From: Bacteroidales bacterium
Lineage (GTDB): Bacteria > Bacteroidota > Bacteroidia > Bacteroidales > UBA3663
Direction: 5' to 3'
Assembly (NCBI GenBank): GCA_024694125.1
Contig: JAILKE010000006.1
Span: 1 to 64,000, forward strand
DNA length: 64,000 nucleotides
Shown here: positions 326 through 40,943 of the stretch, in pieces
Layout of the letters: every line of letters starts with the position of its first letter
Numbering within the stretch: the first letter of the stretch is position 1
Translations under genes and position numbers: made by a program
The notes under the pieces: generated by a model
What the model was told of the DNA's origin: nothing
The model's database searches: none
Seen by the model: only the letters and a program-made list of their open reading frames with translations

Positions 326-2809
326 TCAAACTTTCTTAGAGTCTTCGTGATCACCATAGTAACCATAGTTATAACCGTAACCATAACCATAACCGTAACC
401 ATAGCCATAGCCATAGCCATACCGATTATATCCATACCGAGAAGAAGAAGCCTCAGAGCCATTGAGAATCACACACAGATTATTGAACGTTCCATCTTTG
501 TAGTATTGATCTATCGTAGCCAGATGACTGCGTTCCATCACTCCTACACGAACAATGAACAGTGTAATCTCAGCCAAAGGCTTGATGATTGTTGCATCGG
601 CGACAATTTCAGCTGGAGGACAATCCAAGAAGATATAATCGTATTCCTGCTTGGCGGATTGTATCAATTTATTGAGACGTTCCTGTTGCAGCAACTCAGC
701 AGGATTAGGAGCCAATCGCCCAGCAGGGAGCATATACAAATTATCATAGTCTGGAACTGCAACTATCGCAGTATGCCAATCAGATAGCTGGTTACTTAAA
801 TAAGTTGTGACACCCTCCTTGGGACGACCAACGTGACGGGAGATGGAGCGCTTGCGCAAATCAAGATCAATTACCAAAACCTTTTTACCGGAAACGGCAA
901 AGGATGCTGCCAAATTAGCCATGATAAAGGTCTTGCCTGATCCCGCATTGATAGAAGTAACCATAAATACTTTCTTCTGGTCATACTGATTCTGTCCAAC
1001 CATAAAGGCCAGATTAGAACGTAATATACGGAAAGCCTCATTGATCATATTCTTTCCATCTGCCTTGACCTCCATGACCGTGTGGGGAGTAATCTTTTTC
1101 TCCTTATTGGTTCTCTCAACCATCGGCAGTTCTCCAACAAATGGAGTAGAGAGGCGCTCAATGTCCTTGCGACCTCGTACCTTCGTATTGAGCAAATACA
1201 TGATTACAATGACAATCAATGGAATCAAGAATCCGATTGCAACAGCATATGTCTTGATTTTCTTTACATCAGGTGATACTGGACTAAAACTGCCTGATGG
1301 AGCACTGATCAAACGAGAATTATATGCGATAAATGCCTGATTGAGTTCAGTCTCCTCTCGCTTCTGCAACAGATAAGTATATAGAGCCTCCTTTACCTTC
1401 TGTTGGCGCTGTACACGCTGCAGGTATTTTGCCTGATTGTGAGACTCAGCCAAATGCTGGTTGCTATCGTAATGACGACTTTGAGCAGTCTTAATTTGTG
1501 TATTGATGGTATGCATCTGGTTGTCAATGGTCATCAAGATAACATCGCGAAGGTCCTTCAACTTCTGATCATACTCCTGAACGACAGGATTGGTTGGAGA
1601 ACTCTGCTGCAGGACCTCATTACGATTCATAAGCATCGAATTGTACTGAGAAATCAAAGATTCTGTAGAACCGCTGCCCGTACCACTATTAGCTGGCAGA
1701 AGTGCCTCTACATTATTAGGATTAGACACATAATCACGGACGTAACGGCACATATACAATTGCGTATTCAGATTCTGTATTTCCAAGTCCGTCTGCATCG
1801 ACTGCGAAAGGTATGTACTCGAGATCGTACCATTCTCCGGAAGCATATTGCTCGATTTGTAATCTGAAATATTGTCCTCTACATCGCTCAATTCCTGCTC
1901 TATGACAGCGAGACGTTCGCTAATGAATTTAGAGGTAGCAATGGAAACCTGGTTGCGGTCCTTAACCCAATTTTGGTTGTAAAGAACGATCAGTTTATTG
2001 AGGATATCTTCGGCTCTCTGGTACGAAACGTCACGATAGGTAATATCAATGATAGAAGCACCCTCTTCCGGTGCCCATACAGAGACACGCGAAGAACAAA
2101 TGGATGCCATGTCGTAAAGAGAAATTCGATTGACATGCATCTCAAAGGTGTTTGCCGTACTATAGCTTGAGGTCTTGGATATGACAACTCGCCCCATCAA
2201 GCACTTGAGCGTATCATCAAATGATGCAGGAACAATCTCGTCAATACTCTTGCCTCCATACGACTGACTCTCGATATTGATACCACCTTGACCATCCAAT
2301 TGCAATGTCATTCGAGCATAATCGCGATCTGCTAAATCTAGGAAATCAACTTTAATTGGAGAAGCATTACCGTACAACTCTTTGTCCAACAATCGACCTG
2401 TACGGGCATACGTGGTATGTAGGCCTAACTGACGAACCAACTCGGTATAGATAGCTGGAGCCTTGAGGGCAATGAGCTCATTGCTTACATTGGCATTATT
2501 CTTGTTGATACCAACAGCACTCAATCCATCCGAAATACCGCCAATAGACTGCTTACTGTCACTCTTGATCATCAACTTGGCAGTACGACTATACACAGGC
2601 GGAGTAGTGCGAATCTCAAACCACGCAATACAACCGCATATTACGAGCGACAAAATGAACCATGGCCAATGTCCCAAACAGAGAAACAAGATATCCTTGA
2701 TATTGATATCTGAAGACCCTGTTCCCATTTGTGCAAACGGGTTAGAATTGCTCTGCTGGATGATAACAGTATTGGGTGTCGCAGTATTTGTTTGCTTATT
2801 TTCGTCCAT
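326..2809 (-). CDS. wzc: Wzc-like polysaccharide co-polymerase / tyrosine autokinase
   Basis: The protein has 827 residues from the ATG at 2809, 6 bp after the wza stop; an in-frame TTG two codons earlier is less likely. An N-terminal Wzz-type domain has a membrane helix around residues 45-65 (WPWFILSLVICGCIAW). A long periplasmic coiled-coil region follows, then a second helix near residue 530 and a cytoplasmic BY-kinase domain with Walker A NAGSGKT, Walker A' VLVIDLDLRK and Walker B YDYIFLDCPP. The C-terminus carries a tyrosine cluster made of eight successive Tyr-Gly pairs plus flanking tyrosines, the expected autophosphorylation tail. It should control chain length and export of a surface polysaccharide together with Wza. 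The tail is encoded by a hexamer repeat that can slip (see repeat feature). Confidence 0.93.
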   Translation of the reverse strand: MDENKQTNTATPNTVIIQQSNSNPFAQMGTGSSDINIKDILFLCLGHWPWFILSLVICGCIAWFEIRTTPPVYSRTAKLMIKSDSKQSIGGISDGLSAVGINKNNANVSNELIALKAPAIYTELVRQLGLHTTYARTGRLLDKELYGNASPIKVDFLDLADRDYARMTLQLDGQGGINIESQSYGGKSIDEIVPASFDDTLKCLMGRVVISKTSSYSTANTFEMHVNRISLYDMASICSSRVSVWAPEEGASIIDITYRDVSYQRAEDILNKLIVLYNQNWVKDRNQVSIATSKFISERLAVIEQELSDVEDNISDYKSSNMLPENGTISSTYLSQSMQTDLEIQNLNTQLYMCRYVRDYVSNPNNVEALLPANSGTGSGSTESLISQYNSMLMNRNEVLQQSSPTNPVVQEYDQKLKDLRDVILMTIDNQMHTINTQIKTAQSRHYDSNQHLAESHNQAKYLQRVQRQQKVKEALYTYLLQKREETELNQAFIAYNSRLISAPSGSFSPVSPDVKKIKTYAVAIGFLIPLIVIVIMYLLNTKVRGRKDIERLSTPFVGELPMVERTNKEKKITPHTVMEVKADGKNMINEAFRILRSNLAFMVGQNQYDQKKVFMVTSINAGSGKTFIMANLAASFAVSGKKVLVIDLDLRKRSISRHVGRPKEGVTTYLSNQLSDWHTAIVAVPDYDNLYMLPAGRLAPNPAELLQQERLNKLIQSAKQEYDYIFLDCPPAEIVADATIIKPLAEITLFIVRVGVMERSHLATIDQYYKDGTFNNLCVILNGSEASSSRYGYNRYGYGYGYGYGYGYGYGYNYGYYGDHEDSKKV
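352..432 (-). repeat. Hexanucleotide tandem repeat encoding the Tyr-Gly tail of Wzc
   Basis: Near-perfect 6-bp units (TATGGC, TATGGT or TACGGT on the coding strand) encode eight Tyr-Gly pairs in a row near the C-terminus of Wzc, with irregular Tyr-rich codons on either side. Because the unit is six bases, gain or loss of units keeps the frame and changes the number of phosphorylatable tyrosines. Confidence 0.85.
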
Positions 2810-2815
2810 GACCAA

Positions 2816-3598
2816 TTAATTATTTGCAAGATTACGGAACAATATAATGAGAGATAAAGCAGTCGAGAATAACGACATATAGAACGTATAGGTATTGAAC
2901 ATAGTTCCATTGATATTAGACGACTGAATCTTCTTGTTGTTCGGCTCAACGTAAATAATATCGTTCTGCTGCAGATAATAGGCTGGCGAAGCATGCAGTG
3001 CTTCCCGACTGGTCAAATCCAATCTATAGGTACTCTCGGTTCCATCTGGATTCTGGCGAATCACGAGCACATTCTTGCGTAAGCCCGTCAACTGCAAATC
3101 TCCAGACATGGCAATTGCTTCAAGGATATTGGTTTTGTCATGCTTGAATGCTACAAATCCTCCACCCATATCGCCTAATGTATAGAAACCCACATTGTTG
3201 TATTGGACAGAAACATACGGTTCCTTGATCAATTCACTCTCAATGAGTTTCTTCTTCAAGTATGCCTCGGTCTGCAAACGATCCAAACCTGCAATGCGAA
3301 CTTTACCTAAATAAGGGAAATCAATCTCACCCGACTCATCAATTGTATATTCATTGCCTCCACTACCAGACTGTGCTGATACCTGATTGAACATCTCGCT
3401 GAGTTCCTTATTACGTGTCGTCACATTGATAAAGACTTTATCTCCAGGACGAAACTGTATATTGGACAGAATCTTTCTATCCGCCTGTGCATAGATGGTA
3501 TCTACGTCAGGGATATCCTGTACATAGACTATATTCTTGCGACTGGCGCACGATGAGAGGAGCAACGCAGCAAAAAGCAAAATCAGAAATTGCTTCAT
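2816..3598 (-). CDS. wza: Wza-like outer-membrane polysaccharide export lipoprotein (SLBB)
   Basis: The ATG at 3598 gives 260 residues. The N-terminus is a lipoprotein signal (LLFAALLLSSC, Cys17). A polysaccharide export domain follows (IQFRPGDKVFINVTTRNKEL, then DESGEIDFPYLGKVRIAGL), and an SLBB-type region (YTLGDMGGGFVAF, then NILEAIAMSGDL). A C-terminal hydrophobic segment (MSLFSTALSLIILF) resembles the transmembrane tail of Bacteroidota Wza proteins. It forms the outer-membrane exit channel for the chain handled by Wzc, whose gene begins 6 bp downstream. The frame is open 51 codons further upstream, but only this start gives a signal peptide. Family assignment is strong. Confidence 0.93.
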   Translation of the reverse strand: MKQFLILLFAALLLSSCASRKNIVYVQDIPDVDTIYAQADRKILSNIQFRPGDKVFINVTTRNKELSEMFNQVSAQSGSGGNEYTIDESGEIDFPYLGKVRIAGLDRLQTEAYLKKKLIESELIKEPYVSVQYNNVGFYTLGDMGGGFVAFKHDKTNILEAIAMSGDLQLTGLRKNVLVIRQNPDGTESTYRLDLTSREALHASPAYYLQQNDIIYVEPNNKKIQSSNINGTMFNTYTFYMSLFSTALSLIILFRNLANN

Positions 3599-3657
3599 AA
3601 TAAAAAACTTAAAAGAGTAATATATGTCTTTGTCAGCAAAGAGGAGTCTCGAAACCT

Positions 3658-4440
3658 TTATCGAACAAAAAACTCCTTGACCACATTCCATACAAACTGA
3701 GGATTGCCGATACCATAGCGACGGAACAAGCGTATCGGTTCGCGTGACCACCTATAGAGCCACTCTAATCCACAACGCTGCATAAAGAGTGGTGCACGGG
3801 GCATTGTACCTGCATAAAAGTCGAATACGGCACCTATGGACCCTACATGACACTGGATGTCAAGTTCTTTCCAATGGGAATAAGACCACTTCTCCTGCTT
3901 GGGAGCGGTCATTCCAATCCAAACCATATCTGGATCCGCACTGTTGATAAATTCAACGATAGCCGCATTGTCTTCGTCCGAAAAAACAGGCTTGAATGGA
4001 GGTGAATAGGTCCGCACCTCTATATTGGGAAATTCTGAAGCAGCCTTGGCTCGGATCAGATTGAGTACATTCTCGGAAGAACCGACAAACAGAACGTAGG
4101 GCTTCTTTCTGCCGGGATTACGCTTGCGCCAATAGGAGTTTTCGTCGGACAATGAAGCATCAAGACGCTCCATCTCGTAGCGAAACAGGTCCCAACCTGT
4201 ACATCTGTGGCATGGACGACTTTTGGCTCGCAAGAAATGACAAGCCAACACAATGCTCGTGCCATCGGCCAACAATACATCACTGTTGGTCAATGCTTCT
4301 GCAAAATCTTTATCGTATTTTGCCTGGTTGCAACTATAGGCATTGATGGTGTTGATCAATACCTTTCCCTCTGGAATACTTTTTAATTGATCCCGGCACT
4401 CCAACAGGGTCAGTTTTTTAAGGCTAAAAGAATCCTTCAT
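3658..4440 (-). CDS. WecG/TagA/CpsF family glycosyltransferase (GT26)
   Basis: 260 residues from the ATG at 4440. Family hallmarks are the N-terminal substrate region (NTINAYSCNQAKYDKDF), LADGTSIVLACHFL, the central YVLFVGSSENVL, WIGMTAPKQEKW, and the C-terminal GAVFDFYAGTMPRAP followed by GLEWLYRWSREPIRLFRRY. Such enzymes add N-acetylmannosaminuronate or a similar sugar to a lipid-linked intermediate at the cytoplasmic membrane. It is the first gene of the minus-strand export operon, directly behind a consensus promoter, 59 bp ahead of wza. Donor and acceptor cannot be read from sequence. Upstream in-frame codons to 4488 overlap the promoter-proximal leader and are not needed. Confidence 0.9.
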   Translation of the reverse strand: MKDSFSLKKLTLLECRDQLKSIPEGKVLINTINAYSCNQAKYDKDFAEALTNSDVLLADGTSIVLACHFLRAKSRPCHRCTGWDLFRYEMERLDASLSDENSYWRKRNPGRKKPYVLFVGSSENVLNLIRAKAASEFPNIEVRTYSPPFKPVFSDEDNAAIVEFINSADPDMVWIGMTAPKQEKWSYSHWKELDIQCHVGSIGAVFDFYAGTMPRAPLFMQRCGLEWLYRWSREPIRLFRRYGIGNPQFVWNVVKEFFVR

Positions 4441-37460: not shown

Positions 37461-38732
37461 TCAATCAAAGAAGCCAGGCTGCTGATACTTGATGCCAAGT
37501 TCGCGATCTACCGTAGCCAAGATACCTTGTACCTGACCCATAGCAAACATACGGCCCAACAGAGTGTAGCCTGAATTGTGTCCGTGAGCAGACTCATCGA
37601 ATACACCGCCAGGCTGGTCCGTGAAGGTCATACCATGATCGACACGCATAGGAAGACGACGACCACTGTTGCACTTGCCACGCTGTTCAGCCTGCTCGAA
37701 GATACGGCACAGCTCAATCAGATCTCCACGGCCGCCGAGGTGCGAAGCTTCGGTGAAGTTACCATTAGGGAAGATGTGACATGAGCGGAGGTGTACGAAA
37801 TGAGTACGGTCAGCGAACTGACGTGCCATAGCTACGACATCATTGTGCTCACCTGCCGAGAAGGAACCTGCACAGAACGTGAGGCCATTATGAGGATTGG
37901 GCACTGCATCGAGCAACCACTGAACATCATCAACATTACCTACGATGCGAGGCAAACCGAAGACAGGATATGGTGGATCATCAGGATGCACGCACATATT
38001 GATGTCGTACTCCTCGCACACTGGCATGATAGCCTCCAACCAGTACTTCATGTTGGCCTGCAGCTGTGCCTTGTCGATGCCCTTATAGAGTTTCAACAGG
38101 TCGTGGAAAAGCTCCAATGGACGTTCGTCACCCTCCTTGAAGTTTCCGCTCACGAATCCCTGAGTCTTGATGATGATATTCTGTACCAGTTCGTGATCCT
38201 GCTCAGGAGTAGTAGTCTTCTTCATCTCATCGGCCTCAGCAACGAGGTCACGGCCCCACTTGTGGACCTTCGAGAATTCTGCCCAATCCTGACGAGCGCC
38301 ATCGCGCTTCAGGATATGAATGTCAAAATAGGCAAAGACACCCCAATCCATATAGAGATTGGTAGCACCATTGGGATTAGGATGTGACAAGTCGGTACGA
38401 GCCCAATCCAGTACAGGCATAAAGTTGTAGCAGATACACTTGATGCCCTCTTTACCGAGATTACGCAATGACTCCTTGTACACCTCAATCTGGTGCTCGC
38501 GGTCAGGGCCACCATACTTGATTGTTTCTACTACAGGAAGCGACTCTACGACGCTCCACTTCATACCATAAGACTCAATATAGACCTTGAGATCGTGAAT
38601 CTTCTCCTGAGTCCATACTTCGCCCAGGGGCACATCGTGCAAGGCAGTTACGATGCCTTCCACACCAATTTGCTTGAGTTGGGCAAGGGTAATCTTATCC
38701 TTCTTGCCGAACCATCGCCAAGTTCTTTCCAT
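37461..38732 (-). CDS. uxuA: Mannonate dehydratase
   Basis: 423 residues. MERTWRWFGKKDKITLAQLKQIGVEGIV at the N-terminus begins with MERTWRWFGKKD. Other motifs are DINMCVHPDDPPYPVFGLPRI and MRVDHGMTFTDQPGG. It converts D-mannonate to 2-keto-3-deoxygluconate with a divalent metal. It should be in an operon with uxuB (39354-40943). The palindrome starting at 38738 leaves only 5 bp before its ATG, so its leader is now part of a repeat. Confidence 0.94.
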   Translation of the reverse strand: MERTWRWFGKKDKITLAQLKQIGVEGIVTALHDVPLGEVWTQEKIHDLKVYIESYGMKWSVVESLPVVETIKYGGPDREHQIEVYKESLRNLGKEGIKCICYNFMPVLDWARTDLSHPNPNGATNLYMDWGVFAYFDIHILKRDGARQDWAEFSKVHKWGRDLVAEADEMKKTTTPEQDHELVQNIIIKTQGFVSGNFKEGDERPLELFHDLLKLYKGIDKAQLQANMKYWLEAIMPVCEEYDINMCVHPDDPPYPVFGLPRIVGNVDDVQWLLDAVPNPHNGLTFCAGSFSAGEHNDVVAMARQFADRTHFVHLRSCHIFPNGNFTEASHLGGRGDLIELCRIFEQAEQRGKCNSGRRLPMRVDHGMTFTDQPGGVFDESAHGHNSGYTLLGRMFAMGQVQGILATVDRELGIKYQQPGFFD

Positions 38733-38737
38733 ATCTG

Positions 38738-38777
38738 ACCCACTCCCCGACCCTCTCCCATTAGTAGGGAGAGGGAG
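38738..38777. repeat. Left palindromic end of the DUF559 cassette
   Basis: A 9-bp stem CCCTCTCCC/GGGAGAGGG with loop ATTAGTA sits behind ACCCACTCCCC. The inverted counterpart is at 39311-39350. Confidence 0.75.
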
Positions 38778-38785
38778 TATTTTGT

Positions 38786-39187
38786 TTATTCTCCCGGGAG
38801 TGGCTGGGGAGTTTTTATTTGATTAATGATTTCTTTTATCCGTTGTTCCACCTCTTCAATGCTAAACAACACCTGTTCATTGCGAAAACGGATGACATAT
38901 AGACCCATCTCATTCAGATGCTGCGACCTGGCCAGATCATCCTCATGTTGTACTCGTTCAGCATGATAACCGCCATCAACCTCAATAACGAGATTATAAT
39001 AGGGCAGCAGGAAATCTACAATATAATCTCCAACAATGTATTGCCTGAGCACTTTAGTACCGAATGACTCACCTCTCAAGTATTTCCACAACTGCCTTTC
39101 TGCCAATGTAGCATTGTTGCGATTCTCTCGGGCGAATTCCTTGAGCAACATATATCTATCCGGAGATGCTGTCCGATATTTCCACAT
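38786..39187 (-). CDS. DUF559 (Vsr/endonuclease-like) protein
   Basis: 133 residues (or 121 from Met13 at 39151). ATLAERQLWKYLRGESF, VLRQYIVGDYIVDFLLPYYN, LVIEVDGGYH and VIRFRNEQVL form the PD-(D/E)XK-like fold of DUF559. The Asp-Glu pair of the active site (IVDFLLP ... IEVDG) is intact. Its last residues (TPQPLPGE) are encoded by a third palindrome-related segment at 38791-38812. No methyltransferase partner is near. The gene lies inside a repeat-bounded cassette between uxuB and uxuA. Confidence 0.85.
   Translation of the reverse strand: MWKYRTASPDRYMLLKEFARENRNNATLAERQLWKYLRGESFGTKVLRQYIVGDYIVDFLLPYYNLVIEVDGGYHAERVQHEDDLARSQHLNEMGLYVIRFRNEQVLFSIEEVEQRIKEIINQIKTPQPLPGE
38791..38812 (-). 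repeat. Third palindrome-related segment inside the cassette
   Basis: CTCCCGGGAG plus ACTCCCCAG on the minus strand resembles the outer repeats but with a shorter loop. It overlaps the 3' end of the DUF559 gene. Confidence 0.55.
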
Positions 39188-39310
39188 ACATAGAGTTTAA
39201 AACTGCTCCAAGAGCATGCCTCGCCAAGAACGGCTTCGGCAGTGGACTGAAACTGAGAGCTGAAGCAGCCTGTTTCTGCGGGTATTTGTTCCAGGGTGCA
39301 TAGCATTATA

Positions 39311-39350
39311 TGCCCCCTCCCTATTAACGGGAGGGGGTTAGGGGGTGGGT
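39311..39350. repeat. Right palindromic end of the DUF559 cassette
   Basis: CCCCCTCCC/GGGAGGGGG with loop TATTAAC; read on the minus strand it matches the left end (38738-38777) at most positions, including ACCCAC at the outer border. It ends 3 bp before the uxuB stop. The sequence between 39188 and 39310 shows no further gene. Confidence 0.75.
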
Positions 39351-39353
39351 CTA

Positions 39354-40943
39354 TTATCTCTTCTCCACATACTTGTGCAGGGTAGCGCGGACAGCACCCT
39401 TGCCAGCATAGAGTTCCTTGACCATGCCCTCAATCTGAGCACCGAGACCAGCCTCGTAGAGGTCGATACCGAAGATGTCGGCACGAGAGAAGAGGTTCTT
39501 GAGCGGACTCCAATCCTGATCGGGCTTACCGATAGCCAAAGGAGCGACAATGGCCTGCAGTTCTTCCAGCTTAGGATCAGAAGAAGGAGTGAATGGCTGA
39601 AGATCATCATCAAGTGCCTTGAGGAATCGAGCATAACCAGCCAGAGTCAATGGAATGAGCACGAGATTGCTCATATCGAGGCCACGGGCCACATACTTCT
39701 TGATGGTCTCACCGAATCGGATAGGCAACTTCTGCGATGTATCGGTCGAGATACGCTGAGGTGCATCGGGCATGAATGGATTAGGCAGACGCTTGTTGAT
39801 GACTGCACCGATGAACTCATAAGGATTGAGCACACCTGGATCGGTAACAACAGGCATAGCCTCGATGTAACCAATCTTCTGGATGAAGGAACGCAGGTCA
39901 GCATCGGCCATCTCTGCTGAAATGAGATTGTAACCCAACATCACGCCGTAGATAGACATTGCGGTATGGAGAGGATTGAGGCAGGTAGTCACCTTCATCG
40001 TCTCGACCTTATCTACAGTCTCACGAGTAGTATAGAGCGTACCACCCAACTCGAGAGGTGGACGACCATTGGTATAATTATCTTCGATGACCAGATACTG
40101 AACCTCTTCGGCATTGACGAAAGGAGCTGTGAAGGTATGGCGCTCAGTCTCGAGGAAGTTGTTATCCTCAAAGCCATCAGCTGCCAACATCTCCTGAACC
40201 TTGACATGAGGACGAGGAGTAATCTTGTCAATCATAGACCATGGGAATGTGACCTTCTTCTCATCCTTGAGGTAAGAGAGGAAGCCAGCCTCGACCAATC
40301 CGTCTGCTACCCAATGTTCAGCATAGGCAAAGACACCAGCCTTGACCTTGTCACCATTGTGCGAGCAGTTGTCCATACTCTGCACAGTGAGGGGCAACTG
40401 ACCAGCCTTGTATCGTTCCAGGAGCAGGGCGCAGACCTTGCCCATAGCCAATACTGGATTGAGACCACGCTCCAGGTCAGCCGGAGCGACACTGTAGCCC
40501 TTCTCCGTGATGGTGAATGTAATCATCTGCAATGAAGGATTGCGGAAGATCTCAGTAAGGCGTGCCCAATCATCAGCGAACTGCTTATCTGCCTTGAGGC
40601 TCTCAGTTACCGAAGCAATGACCTTCTTCTCGATAGTACCCGATGACTGGAGACTGACCAAGAGAGAGAGGTTGTTATATGGACGATATGCACGGTCAAT
40701 AATCTCGTAGTCGAAGCTCTCAGCCACGATTACGCCACGATCGTACTTACCAGTATTGAGCGCATCATTCAGGATGGCTGCTGGAAAAGCACGGAAAATG
40801 TTACCTGCACCGAAATGTACCCATGTAGGGTTGTCGTGCGTCTTACGCGCTACAGCTGCGACATCAAACTTAGGCAGCTGGTAGCCTTTTGCTTCCCACT
40901 GGGCTGCATCGAAACCAGGGGCAAGAATATCATTAAGTTTCAT
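39354..40943 (-). CDS. uxuB: Fructuronate reductase / mannitol dehydrogenase family
   Basis: 529 residues. WVHFGAGNIFRAFPAAILN is the NAD-binding start. SMDNCSHNGDKVKAGVFAYA and MIDKITPRPH carry the substrate and catalytic Lys/Asn/His region of polyol dehydrogenases. NPLHTAMSIYGVMLGYN is typical. It reduces D-fructuronate to D-mannonate, the step before UxuA. Its position ahead of uxuA supports glucuronate or galacturonate use; the first isomerase is not in view. Confidence 0.92.
   Translation of the reverse strand: MKLNDILAPGFDAAQWEAKGYQLPKFDVAAVARKTHDNPTWVHFGAGNIFRAFPAAILNDALNTGKYDRGVIVAESFDYEIIDRAYRPYNNLSLLVSLQSSGTIEKKVIASVTESLKADKQFADDWARLTEIFRNPSLQMITFTITEKGYSVAPADLERGLNPVLAMGKVCALLLERYKAGQLPLTVQSMDNCSHNGDKVKAGVFAYAEHWVADGLVEAGFLSYLKDEKKVTFPWSMIDKITPRPHVKVQEMLAADGFEDNNFLETERHTFTAPFVNAEEVQYLVIEDNYTNGRPPLELGGTLYTTRETVDKVETMKVTTCLNPLHTAMSIYGVMLGYNLISAEMADADLRSFIQKIGYIEAMPVVTDPGVLNPYEFIGAVINKRLPNPFMPDAPQRISTDTSQKLPIRFGETIKKYVARGLDMSNLVLIPLTLAGYARFLKALDDDLQPFTPSSDPKLEELQAIVAPLAIGKPDQDWSPLKNLFSRADIFGIDLYEAGLGAQIEGMVKELYAGKGAVRATLHKYVEKR

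Follow-up and report, generated by a model that had tools for sequence, protein, structure and literature searches.

A DUF559 nuclease gene bounded by inverted triplex repeats of the BoxC/PIT type: a probable mobile cassette of Bacteroidales

The unit between uxuB and uxuA

The window, the first 64,000 nucleotides of contig JAILKE010000006.1 (forward strand) of a Bacteroidales bacterium of lineage UBA3663, belongs to a draft genome of 2.97 Mb that is 79% complete (GCA_024694125.1, here G000). On its minus strand uxuB, a gene of the mannitol-dehydrogenase family (39354-40943; PF01232 and PF08125, E 1e-16), is followed downstream by uxuA (37461-38732; PF03786, E 9e-108), and the two host genes are separated by a unit of about 610 bp that contains a DUF559 nuclease gene of 133 codons in the same orientation (38786-39187; Pfam PF04480, E 3e-27). 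The profile score of the gene is 94.9 bits against a curated cut-off of 20.6. When the coding strand is read, the unit begins 4 nt past the uxuB stop codon and ends 6 nt ahead of the uxuA ATG; the original prediction had given distances of 3 and 5 bp.

The sequence and the PF04480 match confirm the DUF559 gene in this position, flanked on either side by C-rich palindromes that are inverted relative to each other. Each end of about 40 bp, previously taken as one 40-bp palindrome, consists of a 25-bp hairpin and a 12-nt tag, and these parts were assigned from the sequence, the folding of the stem and the fit of a third strand. The left repeat (38739-38775, minus strand), which forms the 3' end of the cassette in the direction of the gene, is composed of a pyrimidine (Y) arm (38767-38775), a loop (38760-38766), a purine (R) arm (38751-38759), the spacer TCG (38748-38750) and the third strand GGGAGTGGG (38739-38747). 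In the right repeat (39313-39349, plus strand), the 5' end of the cassette, the Y arm (39313-39321), loop (39322-39328) and R arm (39329-39337) are followed by the spacer TTA (39338-39340) and the third strand GGGGGTGGG (39341-39349). The stems of 9 bp, CCCTCTCCC/GGGAGAGGG on the left and CCCCCTCCC/GGGAGGGGG on the right, each enclose a loop of 7 nt, and the repeats are mutually inverted with their C-rich tags pointing outward. The predicted folding energy of each end is about -10 to -11 kcal/mol, with z scores of -2.2 to -3.6 relative to dinucleotide shuffles. A third, degenerate copy, ACTCCCCAGCCACTCCCGGGAGA (38790-38812, minus strand), inverted relative to the left repeat, encodes the C-terminus ...PQPLPGE of the DUF559 protein, as had been proposed, and is retained in the orthologue of the congener G002.

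The palindromes as potential triplex motifs

On the G-rich strand the left end reads GGGAGAGGG-TCG-GGGAGTGGG and the right end GGGAGGGGG-TTA-GGGGGTGGG. At both ends the third strand fits its own stem at 9 of 9 positions according to the purine-triplex rules (G.GC, A.AT or T.AT), so that a pyrimidine arm, a purine arm and a purine-rich third strand combine within the limit of one mismatch. It had been claimed that the stems of the two ends differ and yet keep their 9-bp pairing; the pairing is there, but the stems differ at a single base pair only, and the third strand carries the matching change, so that all three strands covary. Among 256 palindromes beside DUF559 genes, 132 fit a class II intrastrand triplex if no more than one mismatch is allowed, compared with a mean of 48 and a maximum of 65 when the tags were permuted among the elements in 500 trials. 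Judged by their sequences, the repeats belong to the BoxC/PIT/TM type and are potential intrastrand triplexes of class II; this known class had not been recognized in the first reading.

Triplex motifs formerly called BoxC or PIT occur in more than 260 genomes, have second loops of TTA or CCG, form inverted pairs of types A and B (Holder et al. 2015; PMC4666352) and have been demonstrated to form triplexes in vitro with E. coli sequences (PMC4666352). Knowledge of them dates back to the 1990s, and they are markers of unstable genome regions, with no known origin or mobilizer; an association with mobile elements or gene functions was not found (PMC4666352). The words 'endonuclease', 'DUF' and 'ycjD' do not occur in the text of that paper. 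The repeats described here share with these motifs the order of Y arm, R arm and third strand, the G/C-rich stem, the 3-nt second loop of the TTA or CCG type (TTA on the right of the window unit; the TCG on the left also appears in copy 12 of the published E. coli table), dispersed intergenic copies and inverted pairs of types A and B. They differ in bounding a nuclease gene, in being translated within host genes, and in their first loop of 7 nt, which exceeds the 1-6 nt allowed in the published search (ITxF; PMC4666352) but falls within the 0-10 nt of Hoyne. Tag orientation varies between cassettes: in 34 with repeats on both sides the tags point inward in 15, outward in 7 and in mixed orientation in 12.

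In E. coli, BoxC copy 9 of the published table (MG1655 1,351,239-1,351,204) is identical in sequence to the repeat between the DUF559 gene ycjD and fabI. BoxC flanks ycjD on just one of its two sides, and the majority of E. coli BoxC copies are distant from this gene. A comparison with ycjD-less strains did not yield a clean empty site because these carry efflux genes beside sapF: ycjD-fabI lies downstream of sapF in some strains (L135-L137) and an MFS/efflux gene pair in another (L138).

Palindromes beside DUF559 genes in other bacteria

The window genome contains three DUF559 genes, each with inverted palindromes of its own subtype at both ends. The exact left palindrome of the window occurs once in the genome, but the other two genes have versions of their own. 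One of these genes, the C32 copy, lies between rmlA and rmlB, provides the stop codon of rmlA and lengthens the N-terminus of rmlB (frames as we read them).

Genes of the DUF559 family were found in 81 of 198 Bacteroidales genomes. Under a strict definition, a C-rich palindrome lies within 450 bp of 55 of 80 Bacteroidales DUF559 genes, and on both sides of 21 of the 80; none was found beside 400 random intervals from other Bacteroidales genomes or, in other stretches of ten survey genomes, beside 91 short ORFs. Some Bacteroidales DUF559 genes have no clear palindrome, and many of the loci scored as negative carry shorter versions. In Alphaproteobacteria, whose background is GC-rich, all 31 DUF559 genes have a palindrome (23 on both sides) compared with 40 of 400 random intervals (5 on both sides); the genes surveyed were the top of the profile ranking. 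Further examples are the Deinococcus paaD-DUF559-paaZ locus, the flanks of which share an inverted-repeat match of about 70 bp, Sphingomonas sufB-DUF559-sufC, and genes of Synechocystis, Neisseria, Photobacterium and, with ycjD, E. coli. In Photobacterium sp. GJ3 (L133, about 1860-3267) inverted dimers of the BoxC type form a long tandem array behind the DUF559 gene, with about 148 bp per unit.

The two ends of a cassette belong together. In 67 cassettes from 23 genomes having several cassettes, the left and right ends of the same cassette match with a median score of 23, versus 13 when a left end is compared with the right ends of the other cassettes in its genome (p 2e-10). Matched repeat pairs generally accompany DUF559 genes across distantly related bacteria. 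REPs with a CGTC tag, which were considered as an alternative partner, lack a systematic association with DUF559: of more than 120 loci just 2 have GTCATTGCGAG motifs nearby, in one case 1.4 kb away, and neither the CGTC tag nor the ATTGCGAG-type stem is present in the window repeats. Assignment of DUF559 to an anti-phage defence family was likewise rejected, the PADLOC matches being weak and partial, and a scan of viral contigs with another Bacteroidales DUF559 protein (L031) found no relatives.

Occupied and empty sites in congeners

As the original prediction had suggested checking, the uxuB-uxuA junction was compared in related genomes. It is cassette-free and 45-118 bp long in the congeners G001, G004 and G009, measures 621 bp with the cassette in G000 and 608 bp in G002, and in G011 contains a lone repeat that belongs to a different subtype. 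Identity in uxuA is highest between G002 and G011 (92.5%), and G000 is about 80% identical to both; the closest pair differs in cassette content, so that occupancy does not follow kinship. Among the congeners the cassette is present or absent as a whole. A target-site duplication was not identified, the occupied and empty sites being too diverged to define the ends. In G002 the BoxC-type loop at uxuB-uxuA (L013/L017) contains a palindromic insert of about 70 bp, CCCCTCGCTAAAGC...ATTATCAAT...TTTTTGCTGCGAGGACCC, that is also found at ilvD-ilvB of G012 (L007), a nested element at two unrelated sites in two species.

Alternatively, the gene might be an immobile resident, and the palindromes on its sides common terminators or hairpins that serve mRNA stability. 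They do lie at gene ends, and the 30 Bacteroidales cassettes located between co-directional genes all have the orientation of their hosts. We nevertheless regard this explanation as very improbable in view of the empty sites in congeners, the in-frame insertions inside leuS, ileS and capF described below, and the fit between third strand and stem, which a terminator would not need. In addition, PIT elements showed no terminator activity in work cited by PMC4666352.

Gene-free repeats were examined for the subtype that bounds the C99-type DUF559 gene. The half-site of this type is present in 31 copies in G000, 31 copies in G011 and 0-2 copies in 13 other congeners, and a reversed-pattern control gave none. 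G000 and G011 are also the only congeners with a C99-type DUF559 gene (sister proteins, support 0.98); the chance of such a coincidence of two carriers and two amplified genomes among the 15, mostly incomplete drafts, is 1 in 105. Of 25 C99-type copies that were read, including both ends of the C99 cassette itself, 17 have the stop codon of a long gene within 60 bp on the tag side, mostly at 0-18 bp, and none has one on the hairpin side. Most gene-free repeats stand immediately behind a stop codon, to which the tag points.

These data bear on the role of the nuclease. The repeats could be moved by host replication and repair or by another enzyme, with DUF559 as a passenger or as a domesticated nuclease that resolves or removes triplexes or mismatches nearby. 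The distance of most E. coli BoxC copies from ycjD is in keeping with such a role, as is the Caulobacter DUF559 protein VsrA, which triggers the SOS response and is genotoxic in cells lacking a cytosine methyltransferase and was proposed to be a mismatch nuclease (PMC12907096). We consider this reading as a whole quite unlikely, however, given that the gene and both ends are present or absent together, that the ends are matched per cassette, and that the repeats are amplified only in genomes with the cognate gene.

Cassettes in frame within host genes

Several Bacteroidales have the cassette, together with its repeats, inserted in frame in leuS (7 loci, all at one site in the editing domain) and ileS (2 loci), as well as in hsdM, a methyltransferase-like gene and capF; the names of the hosts other than leuS were read from the sequences. 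Cassettes also occur within essential genes, and all 12 Bacteroidales DUF559 genes inside other genes have the orientation of the host. The leuS site holds a segment of 16 residues in most relatives and of 153-175 residues in the occupied copies. The leuS-inserted proteins do not form one clade (moderate support), which suggests repeated arrival at this site. The copy in LeuS of G044 is decayed, without the equivalents of D71 and H75. In addition, LeuS frames of about 1036-1062 aa such as L220 (leuS of G095, locus 3301-3861) contain after '...INQGMIQGRSNFVYRV' a second DUF559-like domain, which is degenerate (E 6e-6) and may be a cassette domesticated long ago.

The DUF559 protein

The residues T27, E30, W34, Q49, D58, F59, E69, D71, G72, H75, D84, R100, F101 and N103 are invariant, and among them E30, D58, E69-x-D71-G72-x-x-H75 and D84 form an acidic/histidine set. 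The AlphaFold model of the window protein (pLDDT 86) was matched by Foldseek to the gonococcal DUF559 protein NGO0050 (3HRL, E 4e-6), the homing endonuclease I-Bth0305I (3R3P, E 9e-5) and Vsr (1VSR, E 0.04). The fold matches, together with the conserved acidic/histidine site, place the modelled protein in the EDxHD/Vsr nuclease fold; this predicted resemblance to I-Bth0305I and Vsr had escaped the first reading. Three segments that carry a transposase and DUF559 acted as hotspots of recombination in L. pneumophila during experimental evolution (PMC12308824).

With I-Bth0305I as the best structural relative of known biology among the model's matches, the unit might be a homing cassette: DUF559 would cut the empty host site, a gene junction or the leuS/ileS loop, homologous repair of the break would copy the cassette in, and the triplex repeats would be secondary, for example in shielding or insulating. 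Conserved in-frame insertion sites are a trait shared with homing elements, the leuS insertions at one site by proteins of more than one clade fit this scheme, and the rmlA-rmlB and uxuB-uxuA sites are common within the genus. Unlike the EDxHD homing endonucleases and Vsr, the DUF559 genes stand alone or in frame and are bounded by triplex repeats. The window gene lies at an operon junction where no splicing element of an intron or intein was seen, and DUF559 in leuS is an in-frame domain, not the content of an intron or intein. Homing to the empty site appears unlikely to us, as it leaves unexplained the matched triplex ends specific to each cassette and the roughly 30 gene-free repeats that track the nuclease, and the cassettes occupy many unrelated sites.

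A model for movement of the cassette

We consider it probable, if well short of certain, that the window unit is a copy of a small mobile nuclease cassette, composed of a triplex repeat, a DUF559 gene and an inverted triplex repeat, in which the nuclease acts on its own repeat. The proposal of a REP/RAYT-like or nuclease-driven mobile unit is well supported with regard to the REP/RAYT-like organization of a nuclease-containing mobile unit, for which the matched palindromes at other DUF559 genes, the solo palindromes, the empty site in relatives and the in-frame insertions speak; that the nuclease itself cuts or moves the repeats is what we infer. Points against the model are the varying tag orientation, the lack of an identified target-site duplication, the one-sided BoxC of ycjD and the distance of most E. 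coli copies from it, the Bacteroidales DUF559 genes with no clear palindrome, and a repeat amplification seen in two carriers among 15 mostly incomplete drafts. Neither of the outcomes named beforehand as fatal to the proposal was encountered: the junction is not occupied in every relative, and palindromes occur elsewhere and beside other DUF559 genes.

According to this model, the DUF559 nuclease would recognize repeats of its own subtype when they are folded or single-stranded, probably at the replication fork, and would cut next to them. Repair of the break would then place a copy of the repeat by itself, or of the gene with its repeat pair, in a new site. Insertions would be tolerated by selection behind stop codons, between co-directional genes and in frame in a surface loop, and the gene would probably be expressed by read-through from the host operon. 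By such a mechanism DUF559 would be to BoxC/PIT repeats what RAYT transposases are to GTAG REPs.

Comparison with REPtrons and other palindromic elements

In REPtrons, which consist of a RAYT gene and GTAG REPs (Di Nocera 2013; PMC3733652), short palindromes likewise flank a single enzyme gene, and gene-free singles and inverted dimers are found elsewhere. The likeness extends to the cassette class, in which repeats that flank the gene also occur alone, but not to the exact window repeat with its single copy. The enzyme differs, being a PD-(D/E)XK nuclease (PF04480) instead of a Y1/HUH tyrosine transposase, as do the repeats, which are triplex motifs without GTAG and whose tags are C-rich third strands. 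The Y1 gene of the window genome lies elsewhere with other repeats. The RAYT genes of the same genus (L102, L103, L105) are accompanied by another palindrome class, AGCCCCGAAGGGGC / GGGCAACGCCC, and at the RAYT locus of the window genome itself (L104, at C17) the repeat is weaker and further out. Mobilization of the cassette by RAYT in this genus is disfavoured because the RAYT genes there carry these unrelated palindromes. The cassette is thus of the REPtron-like kind that combines repeats and an enzyme, without being a REPtron. Rickettsia palindromic elements resemble it in that palindromic repeats are inserted in frame in coding sequences; in PMC3733652 they are described without an enzyme of their own, whereas the DUF559 cassettes carry a nuclease gene.

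Significance

DUF559 and BoxC/PIT repeats have been known separately. No link of DUF559, COG2852 or Vsr to palindromes, REPs or BoxC/PIT was found in the literature searched, which did not extend to subscription papers and some preprints, nor was their reading as one mobile unit. In its most general form, which we advance tentatively and with somewhat more doubt than belief, the proposal is that DUF559 and BoxC/PIT triplex repeats constitute a widespread class of mobile elements in which a Vsr-like nuclease, and not a transposase or recombinase, would move DNA by means of ends that form intrastrand triplexes. Such elements would spread behind stop codons, into the junctions of operon genes and, in frame, into essential genes, and would be the source of the BoxC/PIT repeats in hundreds of genomes.

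DUF559 thereby becomes a concrete, testable candidate for the driver of BoxC/PIT repeats, including those of E. coli K-12, where ycjD lies beside fabI. If the proposal is true, it describes a transposase-free mobile unit analogous to REPtrons, explains why some leucyl- and isoleucyl-tRNA synthetases have additional domains, and suggests a role for DUF559, a large family of 'unknown function'.
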